Positions 533 to 30,117 of a DNA stretch of 64,000 nt are shown piece after piece. Below the pieces are notes generated by a model. It was not told the origin of the DNA and searched no databases. It worked only from the letters and a program-made list of their open reading frames with translations. The position numbers and the translations under genes are program-made. Positions within the stretch are counted from its first letter, which is position 1. Each line of letters opens with the position of its first letter. This stretch comes from an uncultured Flavobacteriales bacterium (lineage in GTDB: Bacteria > Bacteroidota > Bacteroidia > Flavobacteriales > BACL11): the NCBI GenBank assembly GCA_905181635.1, contig CAJIYM010000003.1, positions 248,001 to 312,000 on the forward strand, in the 5' to 3' direction.

Positions 533-1003
533 TTAAAATCTAAAGTGTGAAAACGCTTTATTTGCTTCTGCCATTCTATGTACATCTTGCTTTTTCTTGT
601 AAGCAGTACCTTCTTCCTTAAAAGCAGCCATCAATTCTGCTGACAACTTAGCATCCATAGTTTTTTCATTTCTTTTTCTTGCAGCAGTAATCATCCACTT
701 CATTCCTAAAGAAACTCTTCTATCCTCCCTTACAGGATGAGGAATTTGGAAAGTTGCCCCACCAATTCTTCTTGACCTTACTTCAACATGAGGCATTACA
801 TTCTCTAGTGCTTTTTTAAACACCACTAATGCTTCTTCCTCTTCAATTTTAGCCGCAATACTATCTAAAGCGGTATAAAATACTTTAAATGCAGTATTCT
901 TTTTACCGTCTAACATTAGATTATTTACAAACCTTGTTACAGTTACACTACCGAACTTTGGGTCTGCTAATAAAATTCTTTTCTTGGCTTTTTTCTTTCT
1001 CAT
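533..1003 (-). CDS. rpsG: 30S ribosomal protein S7
   Basis: Primary 16S rRNA-binding protein that nucleates assembly of the 30S head near the decoding and exit sites. The 156-aa product has the usual bacterial S7 length, a basic N-terminus (MRKKKAKKR), the conserved FVNNLMLDGKK region and the RRIGGATFQIP segment. It lies between rpsL, 13 bases upstream, and fusA, 6 bases downstream, so the three are probably one transcript. No Shine-Dalgarno-like sequence is evident, as is common in Bacteroidota. Confidence 0.98.
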   Translation of the reverse strand: MRKKKAKKRILLADPKFGSVTVTRFVNNLMLDGKKNTAFKVFYTALDSIAAKIEEEEALVVFKKALENVMPHVEVRSRRIGGATFQIPHPVREDRRVSLGMKWMITAARKRNEKTMDAKLSAELMAAFKEEGTAYKKKQDVHRMAEANKAFSHFRF

Positions 1004-1597: not shown

Positions 1598-4500
1598 TTA
1601 TTTTATAATCAATTTAAAGATTACTTTTTCTTTCTGTTCCACTTCAATTTCTATAAAGTAAATACCACTTGCTTTATTTTCTCTTTTTAGGATATGTTTA
1701 TCTGTATCTATAACATTATACTCCTCTATTAATTTACCAAACACATCTACTAACTTAATACTTGCCTGTTTTACCTGTTTCCCAAAATCAACTGTCGTCT
1801 CTTCTCTAAATGGATTAGGATAAATACTTAAAGCTATCCCAGAAGATAATTGACCAGCACCTGTTGATATATTATCAAAAATGTTTGACTCTACAGTACA
1901 TCCGTTCCCATCAGTTACAACAACATAATAAACACCATAATTAGCAACAATATATGTTACACTAGTACCTATTGAAACAAATGGATTAGACTGTTCTCTC
2001 CAAGAGTATGAGAATGGTGCTGTACCTCCTAATGGAATCCCTGAAGTTAACACATATGAACTCTCCGTAATATTCACACTTAATGCTTCTGGCTCTGTTA
2101 CACTATAAGTAAACTCACGCTCACAACCATTACCATCTGTAACTGTTAGTGTATCAACACCTACAGTTAAATTACTCGCTAATGCAGATGTTTGACCTGA
2201 ATTCCAAGTATAACTATAAGGAGGTATTGTTCCAGAAGATGAAGCCAATATACTACCCGTACTTTCCCCAAAACAATCTACGTGCTCTATTGTAACAGTA
2301 TTCGTTATTGCTGAATACTCTACAACCTCTAAAGTATCACTTACACTACAGCCAAGCGTATTATTATAATTAGCTAATAAAACATAAATACCTGCCACTA
2401 AACTATCTACCTGAACACCTGATCCAATAACAACTCCTGAATTATTTATATTCTCCCAACTGTAACTGTAACCCGGATTCAAGTTAGGATTTAAAATAGT
2501 TAACACCCCTGTTGAAGAAGCATTACAAATAGTATCCGTTAAAATAGATATAGAAGCTACAGTGTAAGTGTCATAATCAACTACCTGCTGATTTACACCC
2601 CCAGCAATAACAGAGGAAGGACAATTATTAATATCTGTTAAAGCAACTGTATAATCCCCTGAGCAAACATTTGATATATAATTATTTGCTGTAATAGAAT
2701 GAGAGGTAATAAATCCTGTCTGATTATCTGTAAGTAAAGCAGTATATAAGGCAACTCCTCCTGACAAACTATCAATCAATATAGTACCATCACAAGCACC
2801 TAAGCAGCTTTCTGAAGTACTCACGGAAATATTAAAGGTTAGGCTAGAAGGCTCAGATAAAACAATACTTCTGTTTACCATACAGTTATTTGTATCTCTA
2901 ATGGTTACTGAATAAACTCCTGAATATAAATTATTAATTGTAGCTGTAGTAGCAGAAGAACCTCCAAACCATTGATAAGCATAAGGTGCATGGCCTCCAG
3001 AAGCGGTTACCTGTGCACCACCATCATTATAACCAAAACAACTTACTTCATTACTATCCAAACCACCACTAGAATATTGATGTAAAGAGGCAACACTTGC
3101 ATCCATACTCTCTAAATAAACACGTAAGGTATCAGTACTTGCACTAGCGATACATCCCTTCGTATCTGTAACAGTAATGGTATAAGAACTATCAGATGAA
3201 TTATAATTATCTGCCAATAAAGCACTAGCAGTAGTAGTTGTTTGTGGTAAATTTAAATTGTCATCCCAAACATAAGTATAGCCTGGAGTCCCTCCATAGG
3301 CAAAAGCAGATAAACTAGCGGTATTAACACCAACACAATAAGGTAATATTGTTTGAGTATCGTCTATCTCAATCATTAATTCTGTAGGCTCATGAGTAAA
3401 TACTGTATCACTTGCACTACACCCTTTTGCATCTGTAACTACAACTATATGTAAACCTGGAGTTAGTGTATTAATCGTATCACCTACCCACTGTCCATTA
3501 TCCCAATCAAAAACATAAGGCAATGTACCTCCTACTGCTGTTGCTGCTGCTAAACCATCATTAGCACCATAACAATCTATCTGATCCAACTCAAATGCCT
3601 CCATACTCAAAGGCTCTGGCTCTGAAATATAAATACTATCAACAACCTCACAACCTAAAATATCTCTAGTAGTTACAAAATAACTACCCTGTAATAGACC
3701 TACTGCTATATCTAAATTAACACCAACAGTCTGCTGACCTTGACTCCAAAAATAAGTGTACACACTAGAAAATCCTCCAACTGAACTAATAGTAGCAATA
3801 CCATCAGCATCGCCATAACAACTAACGTTCTGAATATTAGTTAAATCAGATTCTATCAAAGGGTTCTCAGAAATATAAATACTATCAACAACCTCACAAC
3901 CCCAATCATCTGATAAAGTAACTGAATGATAACCAGAAGTTAAACCATCAGCAATAGATGAAGTCTCTCCATTATCCCATAAATAAGCATAATTAACCTG
4001 ACCACCAGTAGCATATAAAATAGCCTTACCTACACTATCACTATAACAAGCTATACCCTCAACAAGAACCAAACTATCTATACTTAAAGCATTAGAAGGC
4101 TCTGGAACATTAAAAGTATAATCAACAAAACATCCCCTAACATCATAAATATGTAATACATAAATACCTGCAAATAAATCAAATAAAGTATCGCGCTGAA
4201 AGATGTAACTAGATGAAGATTGTACAGTATCCCCCTGAGAATCTAACCAATAATAAGCATAAGGACCCCAACCACCTCCAGCATCTCCAACCAACATACC
4301 CGTATTATCCCCCTTACAAGGAATACCAAATATCTGAGCAGAAGCCTGCAAGGCAACCTGAGGCTCAATAATATTAACACTAGTAAATGTGTCACAACCA
4401 TTTGCATCCTCAACAGATAAATAATAACTACCTGCAATCAAACCAATAGCAGTATCGTTATCACTAAAACTAACAGGATTACCACTCTCATACCAAGAAT

Positions 4501-6007
4501 AAATATAACCAGGTGTACCTCCAGCAGAAGAACCAACAACAAAGCCAGAACTACCACCATAACAAACAGCAACTTTAGAGGAAGCTAAAGCCTGTAAAGG
4601 ATAAGAAGGGGAGGAAACTATTACCGTATCTCGCATCATACAATCATTATCATCTACCACTGAAATAATATAGGTGCCACCGGAAAGATTTTCAAATAAA
4701 CTATCTAAAGGGTAAGCATTAAGACTAAGAGTTCCATTTAGAAAATATGAATAATGATCATTGAGACCACCTTCAGCCAAAATACTAATTTGTCCATCAG
4801 AACCATTGTAACAATTTACACCAATAGGGAAAGAATTAACTAAAACAGGGTTTTGTATTTGCCCAACAACAATTGTATCCTGAGAATTACTTATTCCAGC
4901 AGCAACATTAACAATATATGTTCCTGGAAATAAATCTGTAAAAGTATAACTACTTACAGATAGATTAAGTGCAGATAGAACTAAAGAACCATTCATATCA
5001 AGTAATTCTGCATTCCATAATGGCAGAAGAGTATCTGGACTACAAGTTATAGTTGCATCATCACCTAAACATGAAGCCTGAGTAGTCGTTAAATCTAAAT
5101 TAAAACAAGCTGAAACAGTTATCACAACTGAATCAGAAAGAATACCAGAAGCACAAGAACCTACAATTGAAGCAAAATATGTAGTTGATGATGATATGTT
5201 AACAGGTAATGTTGGGCCTGTACCTAAAATATTTCCATTCGCATCAGTCCAAGTATTTGATCCAGCAACAACAGGAACATAAGCAATTGTATTAATGGTA
5301 TATGAATTAGCTGGTGTATTTGGTAAAAACTCCCAACCTTCATTAGTTGCTGTCCATTGTAAACCAAAATTTCTTGGAGCAGCAAGTGTAGGGTCAGTAA
5401 CAATATCCCAATTAGCTGATGTAGCATCTACTAAACCATGAACTCCATTACCACCATTCCAACCAGTACATAAAGGCTTGTCTTGAAGAAACATTTCAAT
5501 CTTATCAGACCCTTCATACAAAACAACTTGCGCTGTATATAAATCCGAGGTACAAGAAAACATTGGCACAGCACACCAAGTTACAACAAATTTTCTATTT
5601 GGCGCAATCCCAATCATACCGTAATAAACTGCTCCTCCAATTCCTGTATTTATGTCTTGCCAAGGTGCCATTATTGCATTCTCAGGCAATCCACCAGGAT
5701 TAGGTATTGCTTGACCAATATTCCAGGGGGAATAAGCACTAGCTTGAGTACCATCAAAAGTAATATAACTATTTCCAGAAACCACTAAAGAAGTGTACGG
5801 AATACCATAAAAATTAAAGGTGAAACCAATCGGAACTAGTACATCGTGCTGATCATCAACTGACATTGAACTCTGATTAGCACTTAAAGCATATAAAGTA
5901 TCTTGATAGCTACCACACACTGAAGTGTCATTAGAAATAATAATCTGTGCGTTAACTGAATTATAACCAATTAATAATATCACCAAAAAAAATAGCCCTC
6001 TTTTCAT
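1598..6007 (-). CDS. Giant SprB-repeat secreted protein, type A T9SS tail (copy 1)
   Basis: Predicted 1469-aa cell-surface or secreted protein. Residues 1-20 are a signal peptide ending VNAQ. Residues about 20-300 form a head with a nidogen-like look (VLVPIGFTFNFYG, MAPWQDIN). Then come about 12 SprB-type modules of 75-95 residues, each opening with a Cys-x-Gly-x-x-x-Gly pattern (NVSCYGDADG, QIDCYGANDG, EVSCFGYNDG) and closing with a D-x-x-G-C motif, so paired cysteines per module are likely. The C-terminus has a type A T9SS sorting domain (IYPNPF, VDVFGK, ASGIYFIEIE). SprB repeats are known from flavobacterial gliding adhesins, but the function of this protein is unknown. Residues about 470-1457 are essentially identical to residues 636-1623 of the 9960-14864 product, while the head and last dozen residues differ. 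Last gene of a three-gene same-strand cluster. Confidence 0.88.
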   Translation of the reverse strand: MKRGLFFLVILLIGYNSVNAQIIISNDTSVCGSYQDTLYALSANQSSMSVDDQHDVLVPIGFTFNFYGIPYTSLVVSGNSYITFDGTQASAYSPWNIGQAIPNPGGLPENAIMAPWQDINTGIGGAVYYGMIGIAPNRKFVVTWCAVPMFSCTSDLYTAQVVLYEGSDKIEMFLQDKPLCTGWNGGNGVHGLVDATSANWDIVTDPTLAAPRNFGLQWTATNEGWEFLPNTPANSYTINTIAYVPVVAGSNTWTDANGNILGTGPTLPVNISSSTTYFASIVGSCASGILSDSVVITVSACFNLDLTTTQASCLGDDATITCSPDTLLPLWNAELLDMNGSLVLSALNLSVSSYTFTDLFPGTYIVNVAAGISNSQDTIVVGQIQNPVLVNSFPIGVNCYNGSDGQISILAEGGLNDHYSYFLNGTLSLNAYPLDSLFENLSGGTYIISVVDDNDCMMRDTVIVSSPSYPLQALASSKVAVCYGGSSGFVVGSSAGGTPGYIYSWYESGNPVSFSDNDTAIGLIAGSYYLSVEDANGCDTFTSVNIIEPQVALQASAQIFGIPCKGDNTGMLVGDAGGGWGPYAYYWLDSQGDTVQSSSSYIFQRDTLFDLFAGIYVLHIYDVRGCFVDYTFNVPEPSNALSIDSLVLVEGIACYSDSVGKAILYATGGQVNYAYLWDNGETSSIADGLTSGYHSVTLSDDWGCEVVDSIYISENPLIESDLTNIQNVSCYGDADGIATISSVGGFSSVYTYFWSQGQQTVGVNLDIAVGLLQGSYFVTTRDILGCEVVDSIYISEPEPLSMEAFELDQIDCYGANDGLAAATAVGGTLPYVFDWDNGQWVGDTINTLTPGLHIVVVTDAKGCSASDTVFTHEPTELMIEIDDTQTILPYCVGVNTASLSAFAYGGTPGYTYVWDDNLNLPQTTTTASALLADNYNSSDSSYTITVTDTKGCIASASTDTLRVYLESMDASVASLHQYSSGGLDSNEVSCFGYNDGGAQVTASGGHAPYAYQWFGGSSATTATINNLYSGVYSVTIRDTNNCMVNRSIVLSEPSSLTFNISVSTSESCLGACDGTILIDSLSGGVALYTALLTDNQTGFITSHSITANNYISNVCSGDYTVALTDINNCPSSVIAGGVNQQVVDYDTYTVASISILTDTICNASSTGVLTILNPNLNPGYSYSWENINNSGVVIGSGVQVDSLVAGIYVLLANYNNTLGCSVSDTLEVVEYSAITNTVTIEHVDCFGESTGSILASSSGTIPPYSYTWNSGQTSALASNLTVGVDTLTVTDGNGCEREFTYSVTEPEALSVNITESSYVLTSGIPLGGTAPFSYSWREQSNPFVSIGTSVTYIVANYGVYYVVVTDGNGCTVESNIFDNISTGAGQLSSGIALSIYPNPFREETTVDFGKQVKQASIKLVDVFGKLIEEYNVIDTDKHILKRENKASGIYFIEIEVEQKEKVIFKLIIK
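3624..3655. repeat. 32-bp exact internal repeat, unit 1
   Basis: The 32 bases at 3624-3655 recur at 3870-3901. Both encode the linker CEVVDSIYISE between consecutive SprB modules. The same pair occurs in the second copy of the long repeat at +8359. Confidence 0.8.
3870..3901. repeat. 32-bp exact internal repeat, unit 2
   Basis: Second unit of the repeat at 3624-3655; identical codons for the module-joining linker, unlike other linkers in the protein, which suggests recent local copying between adjacent modules. Confidence 0.8.
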
Positions 6008-6030
6008 AATTTAATATTTTATTTTATAAT

Positions 6031-6038
6031 CAAAATTA
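6031..6038 (-). promoter_or_regulatory. Candidate -7 box for the 1598-6007 gene
   Basis: Minus strand TAATTTTG, matching TAnnTTTG, 23 bases before the start codon. It suggests that the gene may have its own promoter besides any read-through from the upstream SprB genes. Confidence 0.45.
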
Positions 6039-6100
6039 GGTAATATCGTTAGAAACCACAATACGTTATAAAGCGTAATTTTGTTTTATCTTAATTTCTT

Positions 6101-9100
6101 TTACCTTAATAATGTTACTGAACCTTTCTTATCATAATAATAACCGTCAACACCCTTTCCTTCAAAAACATAAAAGTAAACACCCTCTGGTAAATCTTTC
6201 CCATCAATACCTTTACCCTTCCAAGATTTATCGGACCCAACCCATGTATATACTAATTGACCCCATCTATTAAAGATTTGAACATCTACTATTCCCATGG
6301 CATATTCAAAGAACAAAAACTCATCATTAATTCCATCTTGATTAGGGGTAAATACATTTTTAACTTCGGGTACACCTTGAACTTCAATAATGAATTCGAC
6401 AGAATCTTGGCAACCTGTAACTTCATTAGTTAGCATTACAAAAACATTATTAATCCCTAACTCATCTTCATCAAACTCATGATCAAAGACTTCATTATCT
6501 ATTTGATTTACTCCATTAAAATATTCTGCTAAACCATTCTGCCAAATCCATTCAAAGCCATAAGATTCTAAAGAAATAGTTGAATCAATGAAGCTAATTT
6601 TTTTGGGACCATGAAATGGACCAGCATAATTAATAGTAGTAACCTGTGCAATAAATTCAATTGGCTCAGTATAAACAACAGTTGTAGCAACATCATTACA
6701 ACCATTTGCATCATTTACACTAACAGTATAACTAAATCCTGCTGACAAATTATCTGATATAGTATCTCCAATAATTGTATTTATAGATCCTGTTGAAGAC
6801 ATACTTAGCCAAGAAATATCATATCCAAATACATTATTATTTTCAACTCCACCATCTATTGTTACTTCCGCCCACCCGTCAGCAGCAGCAAAACAAGAAA
6901 CTTGGTAGCTAGAAGATGGGTTTGATTCTGTAACAAAAATACTAAGTAAAGTTGGCTCAGTAATTTCAATTATGCCACTTCCTTCACAATTATTTGCATC
7001 AGTTGATGTAACGGTATATATACCAGCACTTAATATTGTAGGAGTATGTTGCTCATTACTTACAATATTATTTAAAGCATCAGTCCAAACAAAAGAAACA
7101 CCTGACCCTGTAGCAATAGCTGAAGCATCAGAAGCGCCATTACAACTCACATCAAAATCACCATAATATAATGAATCTACTTCAACTAAAGCTACTGGAG
7201 CATTAGGTTGTAAGATTACAATAGTATCAGTATAAGTACAACCTTGAAGATCAGTAACTATAACCGTATAATTTCCAGAAGATAAACCAGTTGCATTTTG
7301 AGTTGTTTGAGCGTTACTCCACAAATAATTAATTGTTCCCGAACCATTAACGGGATTTACAATTGCTTCACCATCACTCAAACCAAAACAACTAACATGA
7401 GTTGGAGTAATATCACTAATTATAGATGCATTTTCTGTTACTTCGTAAGATTGCGTAAAAATACAACCCTGCGCATCAATAATTTCAACCGCATAAGTTG
7501 CTGCAGTAAGATTGGATAAAATATATAATCCATTAGTATTATCTATTAATCCATTTGGATAAACGCTAGTTGTATCCCAACGCAAATCATATGGAGATGT
7601 TCCACCAGAAATATTCAAACCTATTTCACCATCATTTAAAGAATAACAGCTGACGTTTGTAATATTTTCTCCATCTATAATTGGAGTTGATCCTGGCAGA
7701 ATGGTAAATGAAAAGTTGTTATCACATCCATAATATGGAATTCCAAAAGAACTGCTATCAGCATAATGAGTAACTAACCAATAATCTCCAGGAGAAAAAG
7801 CGCCAAAGTAAGTGCCAGCTCCATTACTAATATCTGATCCAGAAGGATTTCCAGCGTTATCATTTTCCCAAGTATAAGTAAATAAAGGATTAGGATCTAG
7901 CACCTGCCCTGTACCATTATTTGTGTTGTAACAAGTTGAAGCATTTAATTCTAAAATTGGGTCAGGTATTGCTAATGAAGCATTTATATCTCTTTCAAAA
8001 CCTGGAGTACCAGCACCAAAAGTTACTGCACCCTCACAATTATTATCATCTGTAATATAAATTGAATGCGTACCTGTTGCTAAATTAAAGATCAATGAAT
8101 CATTTATTATTAAAACTTGATTTACTAAAGGAATAGGGAATGTATTGGCTTCCAAAATATCATAATAATATTCTCCTGTACCGCCATTAACATGAACCCA
8201 AAATTGTCCATTTTCAGCACCTAAACAAGTTGCATCAACTGTATTATAAATATCGTATTGTAATTGAGTTGGTTGATTCAAATATGAACCAATTGTTATT
8301 TCACAACCATTGTCATCTTCAATAACCACCGCATAACTTCCAAAATACAATGAACTGATAATATTACCTGTTCCCGTATAAGAATTTGGACCATTCCAAC
8401 TATACGAATAAGGAGGTAAACCTCCTACAACATTAGTAGCAGTTAAAGCTCCATCATATAAACCAAAACAAGATACTGAATCTCCTGTTATAATCACTGA
8501 ATCTGGATTCATACTGTTTGTAATAGAATCTAAATCAAAACTATCCTGAGCAATACAATTTCTTTCATCCATGACTGTAATCGTATACTGATCTGCTTGA
8601 AGATTATATGCACAAGCAGTAGTTTGCAATAATACGTCATTCCAAGCATAGGCATAATCTGGAGTTCCTCCACTAGCAATTGCACATAATTCACCTGAAA
8701 AAGTATTAGAACAATATGCATATATAGCTAAACTATCAATTATATCAACTACTAACTCAGTAGGCTCAGTAATTAATACAGTGTCAGATGCTGTACACCC
8801 ATTTGCATCTGTAACATAAACGGTATGTATTCCAGGACTCAAACTATCAATATTCTGACCAGTAGGTCCGTTAATACTATCCCACACGAAAGTATATCCT
8901 AATGTCCCTTGAGTAGCAGATGCAAAAGCTGTACCATCATTAAAACCATAACATTGCACTGGCTGAGTTGGTAATTGACCTGGAATTGGAGCTCCGTTAC
9001 CAATTGCATTAGCAAATAATTCATCGGGTTGAGTAATAGTAAATGTAATCGTTTTTCTACATCCAATTGCATCCTCAATCAAAACATCATGTCCTCCATA

Positions 9101-9859
9101 ACAGACGTTAAAAGCAGTATCAGGACCACTTCCATAATAAACCTGTCCGATATCCCAGCTATAAATATGAGGTAAAATACCACCTGCTGATGAAAATTGA
9201 ACATTTGCATCACAGGATCCAAAACAAGAAACTTGATTCAATATATCAGCAACTCCTGTAATAGGAGGATGAGAATTTATAATTTCAATAGAAGATTGAA
9301 ACGTACATCCATTTGTATCAGTAACAGTAACTACATGATTTGCTGCCCATAAATTAATCACTAATTGCGTATTTTGGCCATTATCCCAAGAATAAGTGTA
9401 TGGAAATGTCCCTCCAATAGCATTCTCCGCATATGCAATACCTGAAGAGTCTCCATAACAATCAACATTTGAATACAAGGTAATTAATGTACTCAACGAG
9501 TCTTGAGGCTGACTAACTGTATAAAAGGTATCCTGAAAACAAGTTGGGTTTACCAAATCTGTAATTGTAACATTATAAACACCTGTAGGCAAATTTGTAA
9601 TATCTTGAACTATGTCAGTAGTATTCCAAGCATAAGCATAAAGACCTGTACTGTCTAATAATACTAAATCTATTGCCCCACTTGTTCCTGAATAGCAACG
9701 AACATCAGTTACAATTGCGCTATCAATAATTTGACAATCCTGAGACTTCGCTGTAATTGAAAATACTAGTCCTATAAACATAAAGAGTAACGATTTGATT
9801 CTATCGGTACTTTTGGATAATTTATTTCTCATATTTTTACTGATATATTTATTCTTCAT
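6101..9859 (-). CDS. SprB-repeat protein with type B (gliding-motility-associated) T9SS C-terminal domain
   Basis: Predicted 1252-aa surface protein. A signal peptide with a long basic n-region ends about residue 40 (SITAKSQ); the Met at residue 10 (MRNKLSKS) is an equally good start. About 12 SprB modules follow (DVRCYSG, NVDCYGDSSG, QVSCFGSCD, HVSCFGLSDG, QVSCFAAADG), then a PKD-like segment. The C-terminus is the CHU_C / gliding-motility-associated domain: FTPNQDGINDEF, VQIFNRWGQLVY, LPEGVYFYVFEG and a final GSVTLLR. Type B domains are usually handled with a PorP/SprF-like partner, none of which is in the window. Its module sequences differ from those of both flanking proteins, so it did not take part in the 3-kb repeat event even though it lies between the two copies. 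Confidence 0.88.
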   Translation of the reverse strand: MKNKYISKNMRNKLSKSTDRIKSLLFMFIGLVFSITAKSQDCQIIDSAIVTDVRCYSGTSGAIDLVLLDSTGLYAYAWNTTDIVQDITNLPTGVYNVTITDLVNPTCFQDTFYTVSQPQDSLSTLITLYSNVDCYGDSSGIAYAENAIGGTFPYTYSWDNGQNTQLVINLWAANHVVTVTDTNGCTFQSSIEIINSHPPITGVADILNQVSCFGSCDANVQFSSAGGILPHIYSWDIGQVYYGSGPDTAFNVCYGGHDVLIEDAIGCRKTITFTITQPDELFANAIGNGAPIPGQLPTQPVQCYGFNDGTAFASATQGTLGYTFVWDSINGPTGQNIDSLSPGIHTVYVTDANGCTASDTVLITEPTELVVDIIDSLAIYAYCSNTFSGELCAIASGGTPDYAYAWNDVLLQTTACAYNLQADQYTITVMDERNCIAQDSFDLDSITNSMNPDSVIITGDSVSCFGLYDGALTATNVVGGLPPYSYSWNGPNSYTGTGNIISSLYFGSYAVVIEDDNGCEITIGSYLNQPTQLQYDIYNTVDATCLGAENGQFWVHVNGGTGEYYYDILEANTFPIPLVNQVLIINDSLIFNLATGTHSIYITDDNNCEGAVTFGAGTPGFERDINASLAIPDPILELNASTCYNTNNGTGQVLDPNPLFTYTWENDNAGNPSGSDISNGAGTYFGAFSPGDYWLVTHYADSSSFGIPYYGCDNNFSFTILPGSTPIIDGENITNVSCYSLNDGEIGLNISGGTSPYDLRWDTTSVYPNGLIDNTNGLYILSNLTAATYAVEIIDAQGCIFTQSYEVTENASIISDITPTHVSCFGLSDGEAIVNPVNGSGTINYLWSNAQTTQNATGLSSGNYTVIVTDLQGCTYTDTIVILQPNAPVALVEVDSLYYGDFDVSCNGASDASAIATGSGVSFVWTDALNNIVSNEQHTPTILSAGIYTVTSTDANNCEGSGIIEITEPTLLSIFVTESNPSSSYQVSCFAAADGWAEVTIDGGVENNNVFGYDISWLSMSSTGSINTIIGDTISDNLSAGFSYTVSVNDANGCNDVATTVVYTEPIEFIAQVTTINYAGPFHGPKKISFIDSTISLESYGFEWIWQNGLAEYFNGVNQIDNEVFDHEFDEDELGINNVFVMLTNEVTGCQDSVEFIIEVQGVPEVKNVFTPNQDGINDEFLFFEYAMGIVDVQIFNRWGQLVYTWVGSDKSWKGKGIDGKDLPEGVYFYVFEGKGVDGYYYDKKGSVTLLR

Positions 9860-9888
9860 TTTTCAATTTTAACTTTTTAACAATTTTG

Positions 9889-9896
9889 CAAATATA
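9889..9896 (-). promoter_or_regulatory. Candidate -7 box for the 6101-9859 gene
   Basis: Minus strand TATATTTG 29 bases before the start codon of the middle SprB gene, in a 100-bp gap that shows no terminator hairpin. Confidence 0.5.
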
Positions 9897-9959
9897 CGCT
9901 TATATTAATAAGTACTTATTTAGCGGGTAATATTTAGCAACAATCAATTTTTAATAAAC

Positions 9960-12900
9960 TTATTCTATTATTATTTTATAAAACAATTTAATTCCCTCCA
10001 CTTCAATTTCTATAAAGTAGATACCACTTGCTTTATTTTCTCTTTTTAGGATATGTTTATCTGTATCTATAACATTATACTCCTCTATTAATTTACCAAA
10101 CACATCTACTAACTTAATACTTGCCTGTTTTACCTGTTTCCCAAAATCAACTGTCGTCTCTTCTCTAAATGGATTAGGATAAATACTTAAAGCTATCCCA
10201 GAAGATAATTGACCAGCACCTGTTGATATATTATCAAAAATGTTTGACTCTACAGTACATCCGTTCCCATCAGTTACAACAACATAATAAACACCATAAT
10301 TAGCAACAATATATGTTACACTAGTACCTATTGAAACAAATGGATTAGACTGTTCTCTCCAAGAGTATGAGAATGGTGCTGTACCTCCTAATGGAATCCC
10401 TGAAGTTAACACATATGAACTCTCCGTAATATTCACACTTAATGCTTCTGGCTCTGTTACACTATAAGTAAACTCACGCTCACAACCATTACCATCTGTA
10501 ACTGTTAGTGTATCAACACCTACAGTTAAATTACTCGCTAATGCAGATGTTTGACCTGAATTCCAAGTATAACTATAAGGAGGTATTGTTCCAGAAGATG
10601 AAGCCAATATACTACCCGTACTTTCCCCAAAACAATCTACGTGCTCTATTGTAACAGTATTCGTTATTGCTGAATACTCTACAACCTCTAAAGTATCACT
10701 TACACTACAGCCAAGCGTATTATTATAATTAGCTAATAAAACATAAATACCTGCCACTAAACTATCTACCTGAACACCTGATCCAATAACAACTCCTGAA
10801 TTATTTATATTCTCCCAACTGTAACTGTAACCCGGATTCAAGTTAGGATTTAAAATAGTTAACACCCCTGTTGAAGAAGCATTACAAATAGTATCCGTTA
10901 AAATAGATATAGAAGCTACAGTGTAAGTGTCATAATCAACTACCTGCTGATTTACACCCCCAGCAATAACAGAGGAAGGACAATTATTAATATCTGTTAA
11001 AGCAACTGTATAATCCCCTGAGCAAACATTTGATATATAATTATTTGCTGTAATAGAATGAGAGGTAATAAATCCTGTCTGATTATCTGTAAGTAAAGCA
11101 GTATATAAGGCAACTCCTCCTGACAAACTATCAATCAATATAGTACCATCACAAGCACCTAAGCAGCTTTCTGAAGTACTCACGGAAATATTAAAGGTTA
11201 GGCTAGAAGGCTCAGATAAAACAATACTTCTGTTTACCATACAGTTATTTGTATCTCTAATGGTTACTGAATAAACTCCTGAATATAAATTATTAATTGT
11301 AGCTGTAGTAGCAGAAGAACCTCCAAACCATTGATAAGCATAAGGTGCATGGCCTCCAGAAGCGGTTACCTGTGCACCACCATCATTATAACCAAAACAA
11401 CTTACTTCATTACTATCCAAACCACCACTAGAATATTGATGTAAAGAGGCAACACTTGCATCCATACTCTCTAAATAAACACGTAAGGTATCAGTACTTG
11501 CACTAGCGATACATCCCTTCGTATCTGTAACAGTAATGGTATAAGAACTATCAGATGAATTATAATTATCTGCCAATAAAGCACTAGCAGTAGTAGTTGT
11601 TTGTGGTAAATTTAAATTGTCATCCCAAACATAAGTATAGCCTGGAGTCCCTCCATAGGCAAAAGCAGATAAACTAGCGGTATTAACACCAACACAATAA
11701 GGTAATATTGTTTGAGTATCGTCTATCTCAATCATTAATTCTGTAGGCTCATGAGTAAATACTGTATCACTTGCACTACACCCTTTTGCATCTGTAACTA
11801 CAACTATATGTAAACCTGGAGTTAGTGTATTAATCGTATCACCTACCCACTGTCCATTATCCCAATCAAAAACATAAGGCAATGTACCTCCTACTGCTGT
11901 TGCTGCTGCTAAACCATCATTAGCACCATAACAATCTATCTGATCCAACTCAAATGCCTCCATACTCAAAGGCTCTGGCTCTGAAATATAAATACTATCA
12001 ACAACCTCACAACCTAAAATATCTCTAGTAGTTACAAAATAACTACCCTGTAATAGACCTACTGCTATATCTAAATTAACACCAACAGTCTGCTGACCTT
12101 GACTCCAAAAATAAGTGTACACACTAGAAAATCCTCCAACTGAACTAATAGTAGCAATACCATCAGCATCGCCATAACAACTAACGTTCTGAATATTAGT
12201 TAAATCAGATTCTATCAAAGGGTTCTCAGAAATATAAATACTATCAACAACCTCACAACCCCAATCATCTGATAAAGTAACTGAATGATAACCAGAAGTT
12301 AAACCATCAGCAATAGATGAAGTCTCTCCATTATCCCATAAATAAGCATAATTAACCTGACCACCAGTAGCATATAAAATAGCCTTACCTACACTATCAC
12401 TATAACAAGCTATACCCTCAACAAGAACCAAACTATCTATACTTAAAGCATTAGAAGGCTCTGGAACATTAAAAGTATAATCAACAAAACATCCCCTAAC
12501 ATCATAAATATGTAATACATAAATACCTGCAAATAAATCAAATAAAGTATCGCGCTGAAAGATGTAACTAGATGAAGATTGTACAGTATCCCCCTGAGAA
12601 TCTAACCAATAATAAGCATAAGGACCCCAACCACCTCCAGCATCTCCAACCAACATACCCGTATTATCCCCCTTACAAGGAATACCAAATATCTGAGCAG
12701 AAGCCTGCAAGGCAACCTGAGGCTCAATAATATTAACACTAGTAAATGTGTCACAACCATTTGCATCCTCAACAGATAAATAATAACTACCTGCAATCAA
12801 ACCAATAGCAGTATCGTTATCACTAAAACTAACAGGATTACCACTCTCATACCAAGAATAAATATAACCAGGTGTACCTCCAGCAGAAGAACCAACAACA

Positions 12901-14864
12901 AAGCCAGAACTACCACCATAACAAACAGCAACTTCTGAAGAAGCTAAAGCCTGTAAAGGAAATCCAGGAGCCGAAATAGTTACTGGAACTTCCAACAAAC
13001 ACCCTGAAGAGTTGTCAACAACAGTAATAATGTGAGATCCAGCGCTTACATTACTAAAAAAAGTATCTAATGGATGAGCACTAGTATTTAAAACACCGTC
13101 TAAATAAAAATCATAAAGCAATACATTAGTATAATCCTCAACGGAAACTTGTACTGAGCCATCTGTATCGTCCCAACAATTTATATTAGTATTTGAAATT
13201 GAAAAATAAATTGGTGAAATGGTATCGGAAGATAATGAATTCTCAGCGCATGTAGACTCTGAAGTTAAATAAAAGTATTTAATACCTCCAACAAGAGATG
13301 AGGCAGGAACTACATCTGATTCATAAGGGTAACTAACATCAGATAAAATAGTGTAAGGGCCTCCAATATTTTCAGATCCATAAATATGATAGACTGTTGA
13401 TGAACTAGCACCAACACTTGAATTCCAATTAAAAGTAACATCTCCATTAGGAGATTCCCAAGCACATTCAAAATCAGGAGCAGGTAAAGAATCAGCTGCG
13501 GAAACTTCAATAGTAATAGTTGCAATTGTAATTGCATTAGCAGGACAAAAATCATCAAAAGCTTTAATTGCAAAAGTATATATGTTAGAAGTAATCCCGC
13601 AACCGGCATCAGTGGCAACATGGCTACAAGCCGTTTGCCATTCAAAAACCCCCTCTACAAGTTGAAGCCCGGTTATTGGAGGTGCTAAACCAGAAGTATT
13701 AACAAAAGTAGCACAAGGAGGATTATCACAAAGAGTATTCGTAATATAATCATCAGATACTTGTCCTCCTGAAATTTCAAGAGTAATATCTTGCGATAAT
13801 CCATTAGCATATAAATCATTATCACTAGCAGTAATGTTAAATGTAACTAGGTCTCCTGCTGAAACACTTTGAAAAAATACAGAGGGTGGAGAAGTGTTCA
13901 AAATAGGAGGAAGATTAATGGTTCCATTAGGCAAAATAGGGCAGGCAATTAGAACAGACTGAATTTCCCTGTAAATTGAAGCAACTTTTTGACCACACTT
14001 GAATGCATCTACCCTAATTACTGAAGAAAAATTACCAGCTATATTTGATGCGTAATTAATCTCTCCCGTTTGCGCATTAAGTGTAACTCCTCCTGGTAAA
14101 GGATTATTAAAAGTGTAAGGTGCAACAAAAGGAATAGACAAAGGATTTAAGCCAGGATTATAAGCTGTTCCAAAACCAATGTCATCTAAAGGTTCATCCC
14201 AGGAATATGACAAACTATCTAATTCAAAATCAGAAGCGTTTGGTGTGTAAGAAAAAGAATAACCAATACATATAATTGTTTTAGGACTTTCATTAAATTT
14301 TGGAGAGTTATCATAACATGGGTCAGCAGGCAAAATATTTCCATTAGCATCTGTAAAAGGAAACATAGAAGCTCTTAGAGTAAATCCCTCACTTGGATTA
14401 GCTGGAGTAAGTATAACTAAATTAGATATTGCTCCATTTCTACAACAAGAATCCCATGTAAAAAACCAGCCCGTAGCGGGAGGAGTTCCTGGTAAAGCAA
14501 TAGGTTGTGATTCATAAAGGTATTCTTCAACTGCACCAACAGGATTTGTATTACAATCCAAACAGGCATTACCGCTATTAACGGCGTCCCCTGGAGGTGA
14601 AATATCAGTGCTAGACACATAATCAAGACTAATGTTGGATATTGGATTTACCCCACCATCCCAAACATCTATTGTCTGTGAAAAAGTAGAAAGTGTAGTA
14701 CCATCACAGTCACGATAAACTTTCATTCTAAAAATATACTTACCAACATCTGGGTTATTAGGATCTTTAATACATTCCCATGTAATTTCACCTCCCATAA
14801 TGTGAGTTGCATGAGTATTAACAAAAGCAAATAACACAACTATTAATAGTATAATTTTTTTCAT
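9960..14864 (-). CDS. Giant SprB-repeat secreted protein, type A T9SS tail (copy 2, different head)
   Basis: Predicted 1634-aa surface protein. A signal peptide ends around residue 19, followed at once by HIMGGEITW and KVYRDC, an N-terminal signature common in large secreted Bacteroidota proteins. The head (to about residue 560) includes a cadherin-like stretch (NLPPILNTSPPS, ITASDNDLY) and a fibronectin-III-like stretch (ADSLPAPDFECAWESPNGD). One divergent SprB module (NINCWDDTDG) precedes the shared block of about 988 residues (636-1623) that is identical to copy 1, including most of the type A sorting domain. The final residues (YKIIIE) differ from copy 1 (FKLIIK). It is the first gene of the cluster. 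Function unknown; adhesion or matrix formation is an inference from SprB. Confidence 0.88.
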   Translation of the reverse strand: MKKIILLIVVLFAFVNTHATHIMGGEITWECIKDPNNPDVGKYIFRMKVYRDCDGTTLSTFSQTIDVWDGGVNPISNISLDYVSSTDISPPGDAVNSGNACLDCNTNPVGAVEEYLYESQPIALPGTPPATGWFFTWDSCCRNGAISNLVILTPANPSEGFTLRASMFPFTDANGNILPADPCYDNSPKFNESPKTIICIGYSFSYTPNASDFELDSLSYSWDEPLDDIGFGTAYNPGLNPLSIPFVAPYTFNNPLPGGVTLNAQTGEINYASNIAGNFSSVIRVDAFKCGQKVASIYREIQSVLIACPILPNGTINLPPILNTSPPSVFFQSVSAGDLVTFNITASDNDLYANGLSQDITLEISGGQVSDDYITNTLCDNPPCATFVNTSGLAPPITGLQLVEGVFEWQTACSHVATDAGCGITSNIYTFAIKAFDDFCPANAITIATITIEVSAADSLPAPDFECAWESPNGDVTFNWNSSVGASSSTVYHIYGSENIGGPYTILSDVSYPYESDVVPASSLVGGIKYFYLTSESTCAENSLSSDTISPIYFSISNTNINCWDDTDGSVQVSVEDYTNVLLYDFYLDGVLNTSAHPLDTFFSNVSAGSHIITVVDNSSGCLLEVPVTISAPGFPLQALASSEVAVCYGGSSGFVVGSSAGGTPGYIYSWYESGNPVSFSDNDTAIGLIAGSYYLSVEDANGCDTFTSVNIIEPQVALQASAQIFGIPCKGDNTGMLVGDAGGGWGPYAYYWLDSQGDTVQSSSSYIFQRDTLFDLFAGIYVLHIYDVRGCFVDYTFNVPEPSNALSIDSLVLVEGIACYSDSVGKAILYATGGQVNYAYLWDNGETSSIADGLTSGYHSVTLSDDWGCEVVDSIYISENPLIESDLTNIQNVSCYGDADGIATISSVGGFSSVYTYFWSQGQQTVGVNLDIAVGLLQGSYFVTTRDILGCEVVDSIYISEPEPLSMEAFELDQIDCYGANDGLAAATAVGGTLPYVFDWDNGQWVGDTINTLTPGLHIVVVTDAKGCSASDTVFTHEPTELMIEIDDTQTILPYCVGVNTASLSAFAYGGTPGYTYVWDDNLNLPQTTTTASALLADNYNSSDSSYTITVTDTKGCIASASTDTLRVYLESMDASVASLHQYSSGGLDSNEVSCFGYNDGGAQVTASGGHAPYAYQWFGGSSATTATINNLYSGVYSVTIRDTNNCMVNRSIVLSEPSSLTFNISVSTSESCLGACDGTILIDSLSGGVALYTALLTDNQTGFITSHSITANNYISNVCSGDYTVALTDINNCPSSVIAGGVNQQVVDYDTYTVASISILTDTICNASSTGVLTILNPNLNPGYSYSWENINNSGVVIGSGVQVDSLVAGIYVLLANYNNTLGCSVSDTLEVVEYSAITNTVTIEHVDCFGESTGSILASSSGTIPPYSYTWNSGQTSALASNLTVGVDTLTVTDGNGCEREFTYSVTEPEALSVNITESSYVLTSGIPLGGTAPFSYSWREQSNPFVSIGTSVTYIVANYGVYYVVVTDGNGCTVESNIFDNISTGAGQLSSGIALSIYPNPFREETTVDFGKQVKQASIKLVDVFGKLIEEYNVIDTDKHILKRENKASGIYFIEIEVEGIKLFYKIIIE
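9997..12960. repeat. Long direct repeat, copy 2 (pairs with 1638-4601)
   Basis: Second copy of the near-identical 2.96-kb block, same orientation. No transposase, terminal inverted repeats or target duplication are visible at its edges, so it is not an insertion sequence. Confidence 0.93.
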
Positions 14865-14881
14865 ATCATTCGTATTTTCTA

Positions 14882-14897
14882 CAAAAATACAAAATTA
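14882..14897 (-). promoter_or_regulatory. Two overlapping-range -7 boxes upstream of the SprB cluster
   Basis: The minus strand carries TATTTTTG (14882-14889) and TAATTTTG (14890-14897), both fitting TAnnTTTG, 17-33 bases before the start of the first SprB gene. Confidence 0.45.
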
Positions 14898-15050
14898 TCA
14901 GCTTAAATCGATAGTATTTTTCTGCAATCTTAGGTACTCAAACAGCAAAAAAGGAAATGCAATAGCTAAACCAATTTATATCAATAAAATTAATAATCTA
15001 TTTATCACAAAAAAAATACAAACAAGCGGCATTCAATTTAGATATAAACG

Positions 15051-15058
15051 TACTTTTG
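15051..15058 (+). promoter_or_regulatory. Candidate -7 box for the UvrD-like helicase
   Basis: TACTTTTG, 17 bases upstream of the ATG at 15076. The rest of the 211-bp divergent gap (14865-15075) shows no other recognisable element. Confidence 0.5.
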
Positions 15059-15075
15059 AAATTCGAAAAAATATT

Positions 15076-17355
15076 ATGGAAGACTATTTACAAAAATTAA
15101 ACCCAGAACAAAAATTAGCTACACAACACCTTAAAGGTCCCTTAATGGTAATTGCCGGTGCAGGATCAGGCAAAACAAGAGTCCTTACTTATCGCATTGT
15201 TCACTTGCTAAAAACTGGAGTTAATCCACACAATATTTTATCATTAACCTTTACAAATAAAGCATCCAAAGAGATGCGAAACAGAATAGAAAATATTGTA
15301 GGACAAAACAATGCAAAGAGTCTATGGATGGGTACATTTCACTCAGTATTTTCAAAAATATTACGCTTTGAAGCTGATAAATTAAACTACCCTTCCAATT
15401 TTACAATTTATGACACTGATGATTCCAAAAGTTTAGTGAGAAGTATCATAAAAGAACTAAATTTAGATAAAGATATTTATAAGGTTGGCGTTATCCGAAA
15501 TAGAATTTCTTCTTTAAAAAACAACTTCATTACTCCTGTTGGATACGCAAATAAAGCAGAATTATTACAAACTGATAAAATTGCAAAGCGAACAGAATTC
15601 GGAAGGATTTATCAAAAATATGTTCAAAGATGTGAAAAAGCTTCAGCTATGGACTTTGATGATTTATTATTAAAAACATATCAACTACTAGACAATCATC
15701 CAGATGCTTTATTAAAGTACCAGCAGAAATTCAAATTCATATTAATTGACGAGTATCAGGACACCAATCACATTCAATATCTGATCATTAAAAAACTAGC
15801 TGCCCTTAACGAAAACATATGTATTGTTGGTGATGATGCACAAAGTATTTATGCATTTAGAGGCGCTAATATTCAAAATATTCTCAACTTTAAACTAGAC
15901 TACCCTGACTTCAAAACCTATAAGCTAGAACAGAACTATCGATCTACTTCCACTATTGTTGAGGCGGCTAATAGCATAATAAAAAATAATGAAAAACAAC
16001 TTGAGAAAAATATCTGGACCAACAACAGTAAAGGCCATAAAATAATTGTTTGCAAAACAGGCTCAGACAATGACGAAGGAAGATTGATTGCAAACACAAT
16101 TGGCGATATTGAAATGCGCGAACAAGCCCAGCATAAAGAATTTGCAATTTTATACAGAACAAATGCTCAGTCAAGGTCTTTTGAAGAATCATTACGAAAA
16201 AGAAACATAGCTTACAAAATTTATGGTGGACTTTCGTTTTACCAAAGAAAAGAAATAAAAGATTTACTTGCTTATTATCGTTTAGCAATTAACCCAAATG
16301 ATGAGGAGGCTTTTAAGAGAATTATAAATTACCCAGCAAGAGGTGTTGGCGCAACAACCATCCAAAAACTTAATGTTTTTGCTAACGAACATGATAAAAG
16401 TATTTGGGAGGTTATCAATAATTTAGATGAGATAGAAATTAATATAAATAAAGGAACGCAAATTAAGCTTAAAGAATTTGCGCTCATGATTAACAGCTTC
16501 ATTATAAATACTAGAAAAAAAGAAGCTTATCTTGTTGCGGAAGAAATTGCAAAACAAAGTGGATTATTTAACGATTTGTACACTGATAAAACTCCTGAAG
16601 GTGTCAGTAGGTTTGAGAATATTCAGGAGTTGTTAAATGGAATAAAGGATTTTAGTGAAACTGCTGAAAAAGGAGTTAATAAATTACCTGATTTCATGGA
16701 AGATGTTGCCTTATTGACAGATCAAGACAAAGAAACTGAGGAAGATTTTAATAAAGTAACTTTAATGACCGTTCATGCGGCAAAAGGATTAGAATTTCCA
16801 TATGTATTTGTTGTAGGGTTGGAAGAAAATCTTTTCCCTAGTATGATGAGCGGTGAAAGTCAAGAGAATTTAGAAGAAGAAAGGCGTCTTTTCTATGTTG
16901 CAATAACAAGAGCTGAGAAAAGATTATTTTTATCTTTTGCCTCATCTCGATTTAAATGGGGACAGTATATTGATTGCGAACCAAGTCGATTTATTAATGA
17001 ACTAGACGAAAGCTTTCTAGAAAAACATGAAATTACACCAAAAAATAAAAATGAGTCTAGTCCTTATAAAATTCATGCTAAAACTAAGTTTAAGAAACAA
17101 GAAAACTCTAATGTTACAAAGAAATTCATAGCGCCTAAAAACTTAACAAATATCAATAGAGCAAAAAACATTAGAATAAATGAAAGTGATCTTAGCAAAA
17201 TACAATCTGGAATGAAAGTGAAACATTCCCGATTTGGAGAAGGCGAAGTATTGACTGTTTCAGGAGAAGGAGCTGACAAAAAAGCAGGGGTATTTTTCAG
17301 TGGAATTGGACTAAAGCAACTATTACTTAAGTTTGCTAAACTGGAGATATTATAA
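15076..17355 (+). CDS. pcrA: UvrD/PcrA-type superfamily 1 DNA helicase
   Basis: 3'-5' ATP-dependent DNA helicase for nucleotide excision repair, mismatch repair or clearing RecA and replication blocks. The 759-aa product has Walker A AGAGSGKT (about residues 27-34), motif Ia LTFTNKA, the DEYQDTN Walker B box (about 225), QNYRST (motif IV region), TVHAAKGLEF (motif V) and YVAITRAEKRL (motif VI). The last 60 residues (GMKVKHSRFGEGEV) form the PcrA/UvrD-type Tudor-like tail that binds RNA polymerase in better-studied homologues. It stands alone, divergent from the SprB cluster and convergent with ribF. UvrD versus PcrA naming is not separable here. Confidence 0.95.
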   Translation: MEDYLQKLNPEQKLATQHLKGPLMVIAGAGSGKTRVLTYRIVHLLKTGVNPHNILSLTFTNKASKEMRNRIENIVGQNNAKSLWMGTFHSVFSKILRFEADKLNYPSNFTIYDTDDSKSLVRSIIKELNLDKDIYKVGVIRNRISSLKNNFITPVGYANKAELLQTDKIAKRTEFGRIYQKYVQRCEKASAMDFDDLLLKTYQLLDNHPDALLKYQQKFKFILIDEYQDTNHIQYLIIKKLAALNENICIVGDDAQSIYAFRGANIQNILNFKLDYPDFKTYKLEQNYRSTSTIVEAANSIIKNNEKQLEKNIWTNNSKGHKIIVCKTGSDNDEGRLIANTIGDIEMREQAQHKEFAILYRTNAQSRSFEESLRKRNIAYKIYGGLSFYQRKEIKDLLAYYRLAINPNDEEAFKRIINYPARGVGATTIQKLNVFANEHDKSIWEVINNLDEIEININKGTQIKLKEFALMINSFIINTRKKEAYLVAEEIAKQSGLFNDLYTDKTPEGVSRFENIQELLNGIKDFSETAEKGVNKLPDFMEDVALLTDQDKETEEDFNKVTLMTVHAAKGLEFPYVFVVGLEENLFPSMMSGESQENLEEERRLFYVAITRAEKRLFLSFASSRFKWGQYIDCEPSRFINELDESFLEKHEITPKNKNESSPYKIHAKTKFKKQENSNVTKKFIAPKNLTNINRAKNIRINESDLSKIQSGMKVKHSRFGEGEVLTVSGEGADKKAGVFFSGIGLKQLLLKFAKLEIL

Positions 17356-17391
17356 TGCCTAAATAAAGAAGCTTAATCGGAATTTCATAAT

Positions 17392-18348
17392 TTAATCAAA
17401 GACATTATTCTTTTCATTTATGACATCCAAATATATTTTACAATTATTTTCATCAATCTTTAGCTGACCTTGCAAATCTTCTAAAGAGTCAAACTGTTTT
17501 TCATCTCTAATTCTCTTTAAAAACTCAACTTTTATATCAGAATCATAAACATCATCTGAAAAATCAAAAATATGTACTTCTAAAGAATGCTTACTATTGT
17601 TGAGGGTTGGTTTATTACCAATATTTAACATACCAAAATACTGCTTATTTTTCAAAAATACTTTCACAATATACACACCATCACAAGGGATTAATTTCCA
17701 CTTATTTTCAATCAGAATGTTAGCAGTTGGATAAGCTATTGTTCGGCCAATTTCATTACCCTTAACTACAATACCATTTATTAAATAATTATATCCCAAG
17801 TAAGCATTTGCTTTCTCTACTGATCCATTAGATAACAACTTTCTTATTTTTGTAGAACTGACAGTAACTTCTGACTCATCTTGTGGTGGAATTTGTTCCA
17901 GTTTAAAATTATATAATTCTGAAAGTTCTTTCAATTCATTGTAAGACCCCTCTCTATTCCTTCCAAAATGATGATCATATCCTACAACCATATGTTTCAT
18001 TTTCAATTTATTTACGAGTAAATCTCTAATAAAATTAACTGATTTTGTTCTTGAAAAATCTTTTGTAAACTCATGAATAATAAAATGCTGTATTCCTGAT
18101 TTTTCTAATTCTTTTATTTTCTCATCAATCGTGTTTAACAATTTGAGCTTTTGATCCTCAGGCTGTAAAACATGCCTAGGGTGTGGATAAAAAGTAAGCA
18201 AAACGCTTTCTCCAACTTCATTTTTAGCAATTTCATTCATACGTTTCAAGACATATTTATGTCCTTTGTGCACACCATCAAAAGTGCCTAAAGTTAATAC
18301 TGACTTAATATCTGATGGAAACTGGTCTATTGAATGATAAACTTTCAC
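17392..18348 (-). CDS. ribF: Bifunctional riboflavin kinase / FAD synthetase
   Basis: Makes FMN and then FAD from riboflavin. The 318-aa product has the N-terminal nucleotidyltransferase motif TLGTFDGVHKGHK (about residues 19-31), FYPHPR, and the C-terminal flavokinase motif with GRTIAYPTANI and FGMLNIGNKPT. Length is normal for the family. The start codon is GTG. It is divergent from atpD, with a TAATTTTG box 35 bases upstream. Confidence 0.95.
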   Translation of the reverse strand: MKVYHSIDQFPSDIKSVLTLGTFDGVHKGHKYVLKRMNEIAKNEVGESVLLTFYPHPRHVLQPEDQKLKLLNTIDEKIKELEKSGIQHFIIHEFTKDFSRTKSVNFIRDLLVNKLKMKHMVVGYDHHFGRNREGSYNELKELSELYNFKLEQIPPQDESEVTVSSTKIRKLLSNGSVEKANAYLGYNYLINGIVVKGNEIGRTIAYPTANILIENKWKLIPCDGVYIVKVFLKNKQYFGMLNIGNKPTLNNSKHSLEVHIFDFSDDVYDSDIKVEFLKRIRDEKQFDSLEDLQGQLKIDENNCKIYLDVINEKNNVFD

Positions 18349-28737: not shown

Positions 28738-28742
28738 CAAAG

Positions 28743-28825
28743 TAAAGTGGATAGATTTGGCCTATTGCAACCACTGAAAAAAATGCTAAAACAGTATTTC
28801 CTTTAGCGCTTATTCGCCAAATCTT
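28743..28825 (+). ncRNA. SAM-II (SAM-alpha) riboswitch plus possible expression platform
   Basis: The leader of metK carries the SAM-II consensus blocks in order: AGTGG (P1 5' arm), GATTTGGC, TATTGCAA, CCACT (P1 3' arm), A-rich L3, then GCTAAA (28785-28790). SAM-II forms an H-type pseudoknot binding S-adenosylmethionine, and metK makes SAM, so feedback repression fits. Two perfect downstream complements exist: GATTTGGC (28754-28761) with GCCAAATC (28816-28823), and GCTAAA with TTTAGC (28802-28807). These could form the ligand-free alternative fold. No U-tract terminator precedes the ATG at 28858, so control may be translational or by another route. Blocks are seen; the class call is from remembered consensus; the switching model is inference. 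Confidence 0.8.
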
Positions 28826-28857: not shown

Positions 28858-30117
28858 ATGTCATATTATTTCACATCAGAGTCCGTCTCAGAAGGACACC
28901 CAGACAAAGTAGCAGACCAAATTTCGGATGCATTATTAGATAATTTTTTAGCCCAAGATCCCCACTCAAAAGTAGCATGTGAAACACTAGTAACTACAGG
29001 ACTAACAGTACTAAGTGGAGAGGTAAAAACAGAAGGCTATGTTGATGTGCAAAAAGTAGCGCGCGAGGTAATTCGTAAGATTGGATATATAAAATCAGAA
29101 TACCAATTTGATGCTGATAGTTGTGGTGTTATTTCAGCAATACACGAACAATCTGCTGATATTAGACAAGGAGTAGTTGAGGGAGAAGGTCTGAATAAAG
29201 AGCAAGGTGCAGGTGACCAAGGAATGATGTTTGGATATGCAACAAATGAAACTGAAAATTTGATGCCATTGGCTTTAGATATTTCTCACAAAATATTGAT
29301 TGAATTAGCAGCGATTCGTAAAGCAGGAAAAGAAATGACTTACCTGCGCCCAGACTCCAAGTCCCAAGTTACTTTAGAGTACAATGATAACCATACCCCA
29401 AAAAGAATTACAGATATTGTTGTTTCTACGCAACATGATGATTTTGCAGATGAAAAACCAATGCAACAACAAATTGAATCTGATGTAAGAAACTTATTGA
29501 TCCCAAAAATTAAAGCACAGTTATCTATTGAAAATTCGGCTTTATTTGGAGAAGAAAAATACCATGTAAACCCTACTGGAAAGTTTGTAATTGGAGGCCC
29601 TCACGGAGATACAGGATTAACTGGAAGAAAAATTATTGTAGATACCTATGGTGGGAAAGGAGCACATGGTGGTGGTGCTTTTTCAGGAAAAGACCCAAGT
29701 AAAGTTGACCGTTCGGCAGCTTATGCTACTCGTCATATTGCAAAAAACCTAGTAGCAGCTGGTGTAGCTGAGCGTATATTGGTACAAGTAAGTTATGCTA
29801 TTGGTGTAGCTGAGCCAATGGGAATTTTTGTGGACACATATGGAACTTCAAAATTAAATTTGAAAGATGGTGAGATTGCTGAAATAGTAAAAGAAATGCC
29901 TTGCTTCAACTTGAAACCAGCTTCAATTATCAGCCGTTTAAAGTTAAAAAATCCTATTTATTCAGAAACTGCAGCTTATGGACACATGGGAAGAAAATCT
30001 GAAACTAAAATCGTTAAATTTTTAGTTGGAAAAGAAGAAAAAGAATTTGAAGTAGAAACTTTTACTTGGGAGAAATTAGATTGCCAAGAAGAAGTGAAAT
30101 CTGCTTTTGGATTATAA
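28858..30117 (+). CDS. metK: S-adenosylmethionine synthetase
   Basis: Makes SAM from methionine and ATP. The 419-aa protein has [16 protein letters not shown], the ATP-binding [12 protein letters not shown] and the P-loop-like [14 protein letters not shown] with [17 protein letters not shown]. It is preceded by a SAM-II-like riboswitch and followed by a bidirectional terminator. Confidence 0.99.

Follow-up and report, generated by a model that had tools for sequence, protein, structure and literature searches.

The closest precedents for the genes described here are babA/babB of Helicobacter pylori and rgpA/kgp/hagA of Porphyromonas gingivalis. According to PMC3960876, which cites Pride and Blaser 2002, the 5′ parts of H. 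pylori babA/babB and homA/homB are alike between strains and the 3′ parts are alike within a strain, through RecA-dependent intragenomic conversion. The P. gingivalis genes rgpA, kgp and hagA encode substrates of type IX secretion (T9SS) with different N-termini and with adhesin repeats that are identical within and between genes and break draft assemblies (PMC5266723). Long-lasting concerted evolution in prokaryotes has been described for 26 genes, mostly in important pathways, with adhesins unmentioned (Wang and Chen 2018, PMC6053082).

We analysed a 64,000-nt stretch of DNA (the window) from the genome G000. Two of its genes, A and C, carry unlike N-terminal heads on a common C-terminal stalk that makes up two thirds of each ORF; gene B lies between them. 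The features of the window are as follows.

533..1003, minus strand: rpsG, conserved neighbour on the C side (rpsL-rpsG-fusA)
1598..6007, minus strand: gene C, 1,469 aa; nidogen-hinting head, SprB-repeat stalk, type-A T9SS sorting domain
1638..4601, minus strand: homogenised stalk, C copy; 4 differences from the A copy
4196..4225, minus strand: loop island, C copy, VQSSSSYIFQ; D reads LDSRFSGTSTSE there, a difference also kept in G005
4602..6007, minus strand: C head; 97% amino acid identity to the G005 orthologue
6101..9859, minus strand: gene B, 1,252 aa; SprB repeats and CHU_C type-B sorting domain; outside the homogenised set
9960..14864, minus strand: gene A, 1,634 aa; HIMGGEITW head, FN3-like stretch (by eye), SprB-repeat stalk, type-A sorting domain
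9997..12960, minus strand: homogenised stalk, A copy
12555..12584, minus strand: loop island, A copy
12961..14864, minus strand: A head; 96% amino acid identity to the G005 orthologue over the first 454 aa
15076..17355, plus strand: pcrA/uvrD helicase, conserved neighbour on the A side

Base-by-base alignment of 1638-4601 with 9997-12960 is ungapped at an offset of 8,359 and contains 4 differences in 2,964 bases, bearing out the near-identical 2.96-kb direct repeat, different at its edges, that the initial annotation had described. The differences are confined to positions 1661, 4576, 4577 and 4580, leaving 1662-4575 (2,914 bp) perfectly identical. Just beyond both blocks, the similarity of A and C is at background level. 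Both of the stalk copies counted initially are real, but the count was incomplete: a search of G000 located a third copy at G000:C3:179605-182614, in a gene D about 70 kb away on the contig of the window. The head of D is a choice-of-anchor-L domain (NF038133, E=2e-53). Its stalk equals those of C and A except for a 28-bp island, including a 6-bp indel, inside window positions 4196-4225, one SNP at 4324 and the edge positions, which match A on one side and C on the opposite side.

Several further observations were made in the same genome. The gene immediately downstream of D (L021:6019-7602, minus strand) encodes a choice-of-anchor-L protein of 527 aa, which is 68% identical to the D head and has no long stalk. 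A second head-swap pair is formed by two adjacent secreted genes (L022:9533-13768 and 13772-17785, corresponding to G000:C3:201532-205767 and 205771-209784). Their N-termini differ and their last 1,430 bp are 91% identical, and well over 100 consecutive residues encoded there are practically the same; in G005 there is one copy only. Elsewhere in the window, a SAM-II riboswitch (RF01726, 66 bits) occupies 28741-28799 on the plus strand, 59 bp upstream of an ORF at 28858.

The SprB repeats of A, B and C belong to PF13573. The sorting domains of A, C and D are type A, matching PF18962 and TIGR04183 above cut-off, whereas the type-B (CHU_C) C-terminal domain is found in gene B alone, and A, C and D thus lack the type-B domain expected of an orthologue of the SprB gliding adhesin. 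The earlier name "SprB proteins" is therefore apt for the repeats of A and C and not for their sorting domains. G000 encodes the T9SS translocon gene sprA, with SprA_N over cut-off at G000:C4. On this domain content, A, C and D are predicted T9SS type-A substrates displayed at the surface, with a putative adhesive role. The heads of A and C have no family in common, in agreement with the initial view of them as unrelated. In Pfam and NCBIfam, the A head matched no named family, lending no support to the label "cadherin-like", and the C head gave sub-threshold hints only, including NIDO at E=0.12, so that "nidogen-like" stands as no more than a hint. AlphaFold models of the A and C heads are of low confidence (mean pLDDT 43 and 48).

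The A-B-C locus adjoins pcrA in many genomes of the family. Comparison with these relatives, which the initial annotation had recommended as a search for other heads on the same stalk, revealed the same heads with separately homogenised stalks in each genome, D being the further head. G005 (CAJJAH010000001.1, Cryomorphaceae bacterium BACL11, FRAM18_bin189) shares the locus and also possesses gene D; across the coding stalk, identity among its A, C and D copies is 99.2-99.8%. Orthologous stalks of G000 and G005 differ at 12.6% of positions (dS 0.35), with about 181 synonymous differences between the genomes and 3-9 between copies within either. In G010 (99% complete, 2 contigs), A, B, C and D stand side by side; the stalks are 98.7-99.9% identical to each other and 68% identical to the G000 stalk. 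The C and D stalks of G008 are 99.0% identical, and A/C identity is 97.8-99.6% in AG913, AH716, AG453, WSC20 and bin220 (L008, L009, L012, L016 and L017). Further genera gave within-genome values of 98.2% (G045), 97.8-98.1% (G043) and 96.7% (G041). Inside one genome, A, C and D stalks are thus ~97-100% identical with a synonymous divergence of 0-0.02 (dS 0.004-0.022 in the comparison with G005, G010 and G008), whereas stalk dS between genomes ranges from 0.15 to >1 (~0.9-1.1 from G000 to G010 or G008), resembling the flanks. Where the stalks diverge between genomes, the heads show normal orthologue divergence. Genus g5 (G020 and G022) has two stalks only ~74% alike, indicating that homogenisation is not universal; gene A of G020 has a type-B-like end.

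Paralogous stalks within a genome are closer than orthologous stalks between genomes, the hallmark of concerted evolution. In a maximum-likelihood tree of stalk DNA, the copies cluster by genome in all nine genomes, with 100% support in eight; the G000 cluster is set apart by 100%-supported G005 and outer branches, and its innermost split has 87% support. Although stalk dS between AG913 and AH716 is 0.15, neither genome shows any synonymous difference between its A and C stalks in ~560 sites, which argues that homogenisation outruns mutation on short time scales. The edge of the identical tract also varies: it lies within about the first 9 stalk codons in G000 and G005, at ~20-31 in G010 and G008, and at 60-145 in the AG group. 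Such variation indicates that there is no fixed cassette and fits conversion tracts limited by loss of homology rather than a mobile cassette. Orthologous heads and conserved pcrA and rpsL-rpsG-fusA flanks in several genera place the duplication before the divergence of the species compared. We therefore consider it very probable that gene conversion has kept the stalks of A, C and D evolving in concert over a long time, in at least six genera. Of the two origins proposed initially, gene conversion is strongly supported by within- versus between-genome divergence, the stalk tree and the loci of related genomes. Recent cassette copying is not supported: the comparative sequence evidence places the arrangement before several genera split, and what is recent is only the identity, which is continually renewed.

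In the mechanism that we propose, A, C and D would be exported by the T9SS to the cell surface, their N-terminal heads being unrelated and their C-terminal stalk, made of SprB repeats and a type-A sorting domain, being held in common. The stalk copies would be overwritten with each other again and again by homologous recombination, mostly without crossover (gene conversion), and the outcome would be stalks that are near-identical inside a genome and diverge between species. The heads, which have no homology to each other, could not be converted and would keep their identities. RecA-type conversion is the putative mechanism, and a common stalk may bring some benefit. A diversity-generating mechanism was considered and rejected, since the copies differ in a single block and at the edges, not by adenine changes dispersed along the sequence. 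GC3 is the same in head and stalk in G000, and is 0.24-0.25 in the stalks of G010 (L054/L055) against 0.16-0.18 in its heads, a rise that GC-biased conversion or imported sequence could explain.

The near-perfect identity and sharp edges in G000 could also come from a stalk and sorting domain duplicated once, lately, onto different heads in this lineage. Other species and genera have these heads with shared stalks at the corresponding locus, homogenised separately in each; the edges vary from one genome to the next, and none of the neighbouring genes examined was recognised as belonging to a mobile element, making such a single event very improbable. Had the stalks instead been duplicated long ago and held identical by purifying selection, their synonymous sites would not be identical within genomes and diverged between them, and stalk dN/dS (0.26) would not exceed that of the heads (0.06-0.15); the synonymous sites refute this explanation. 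As for assembly error, short-read assemblers break or collapse at the stalk repeat, and the contigs L011 and G008:C6 look chimeric. In several fragmented genomes, contigs end just inside the stalk (L013, L018 and L019; C8 and C24 of G013; C35 and C84 of G004; C114 of G002), and in G004 those of A and C share the same terminal 141 bases, as expected of an exact repeat stopping a de Bruijn assembler. Small internal stalk differences may have been collapsed in some assemblies. Nevertheless, a collapsed consensus pasted twice, or a false join creating the locus, is scarcely credible: the same arrangement and within-genome identity recur in several independent assemblies, including the large-contig G005 and G010, and copy-specific differences are kept in register in two species. 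The D island and scattered differences retained in several genomes speak against general collapse. In the Fram Strait study, PacBio HiFi reads of ~9.6 kb and Illumina reads were assembled (PMC8254474), and the 417-kb contig of bin189 (G005) is in keeping with a long-read origin.

Crossovers between the direct repeats would delete B and a head, or swap heads, and could make the locus vary by phase or strain; a deletion of 8,359 bp and possible switching had been predicted from the window. Ten genomes from five genera retain A, B and C in this order (G000, G005, G010, G016, G018, G043, G045, G048, G050 and G051); the locus was assigned to G016, G018, G048, G050 and G051 from coordinates and ORF lengths, and the G043 locus is partial (A head cut off, C stalk running off the contig). 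Alternative configurations amount to one deletion-like and one exchange-like contig, both doubtful draft assemblies. L011:1854-6743 reads A head, stalk, C-type tail and then rpsL, without B and C, exactly the predicted deletion junction. N are frequent in this contig from the stalk on but nearly absent from the head, which rules it out as proof of deletion; it is probably a misassembly of two contigs merged at the stalk. In G008, L056:6310-10941 (G008:C6:14309-18940) carries a D head with a tail of the A type, and B and C come next; it is either a crossover product or a chimeric contig; as the A head still adjoins pcrA in this draft genome, it was rejected as proof of exchange. No recombinase or inverted-repeat switch was seen. 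Programmed or frequent switching is accordingly unlikely, and the predicted deletion finds no sound example. In G011 and G009, A adjoins rpsL with no B or C between. The A gene of G011 (L058:7584-11993) ends before the sorting domain, just upstream of rpsL, B and C being absent; this locus has possibly decayed.

Under concerted evolution of the stalks, heads and stalk have different fates. Between G000 and G005, dN/dS is 0.06 (A), 0.13 (C) and 0.15 (D) for the heads, 0.26 for the stalk, 0.21 for gene B and 0.07 for pcrA. The usual picture of a fixed stalk with a varying tip is thereby reversed across species: the tips are kept one by one, and the stalk protein changes faster, in all copies together. 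The C head (window 4602-6007) has a dS of 0.17 between these genomes, about half of the 0.36-0.40 in the A and D heads, perhaps owing to exchange between species.

A loop of 10-12 residues specific to D departs from this regime, nearly all of its surroundings being homogenised in G000 and G005. The D sequence at stalk codons 126-137 is LDSRFSGTSTSE in G000, where both A and C have VQSSSSYIFQ, and LDSRFSGTTTTE in G005, where both have LQSSSSYISQ. The D loop is distinct in both genomes and must therefore predate the species split and have escaped conversion since; the D-specific difference is absent from G010 and G008. That selection acts on the loop is a reasonable guess, and a purely mechanical barrier to conversion may instead account for it. 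A broader scenario, which we put forward tentatively and hold to be improbable, combines a selected common stalk (for a shared surface partner, co-assembly, or a one-go change of the surface target of phages or grazers), in-step change by conversion, protection of the D loop for a D-specific role, and occasional crossovers exchanging heads between loci.

These genes clearly illustrate how part of a gene can go on evolving in concert across genera, here in uncultured marine bacteria whose genomes are small. With heads conserved singly and stalks changing jointly, they provide a natural comparative test of why surface proteins share a stalk. Because stalk genes break or are mis-joined in drafts, the adhesin repertoires of marine Bacteroidota are probably mis-assembled and under-counted.

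The SprB adhesin of Flavobacterium johnsoniae is far larger than A, C and D and ends in a type-B sorting domain. Our proteins resemble it in their SprB repeats (PF13573) and predicted T9SS export, and differ in carrying type-A sorting domains. With the H. pylori adhesin paralogues babA/babB they share separate 5′ and concerted 3′ parts; those, however, are porin-family outer-membrane proteins with homologous heads in one species, whereas here predicted T9SS substrates with unrelated heads occupy two or three loci in several genera. Like the products of rgpA/kgp/hagA, they are, by prediction, T9SS substrates with unlike N-termini before common repeats that break assemblies; the P. gingivalis genes have cleaved-adhesin-domain modules in shuffled order and protease heads in one species group, in contrast to the SprB repeats and one fixed block found here. 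As in the set of Wang and Chen, paralogues are closer within than between species over long times, but here homogenisation is limited to the C-terminal part, the proteins being otherwise unrelated. Among the titles and abstracts listed for SprB, type IX secretion and gene conversion in combination, there was no report of shared-stalk homogenisation. What is new here is the combination of unrelated heads, SprB-repeat stalks, two or three loci, persistence across several genera and a protected island.
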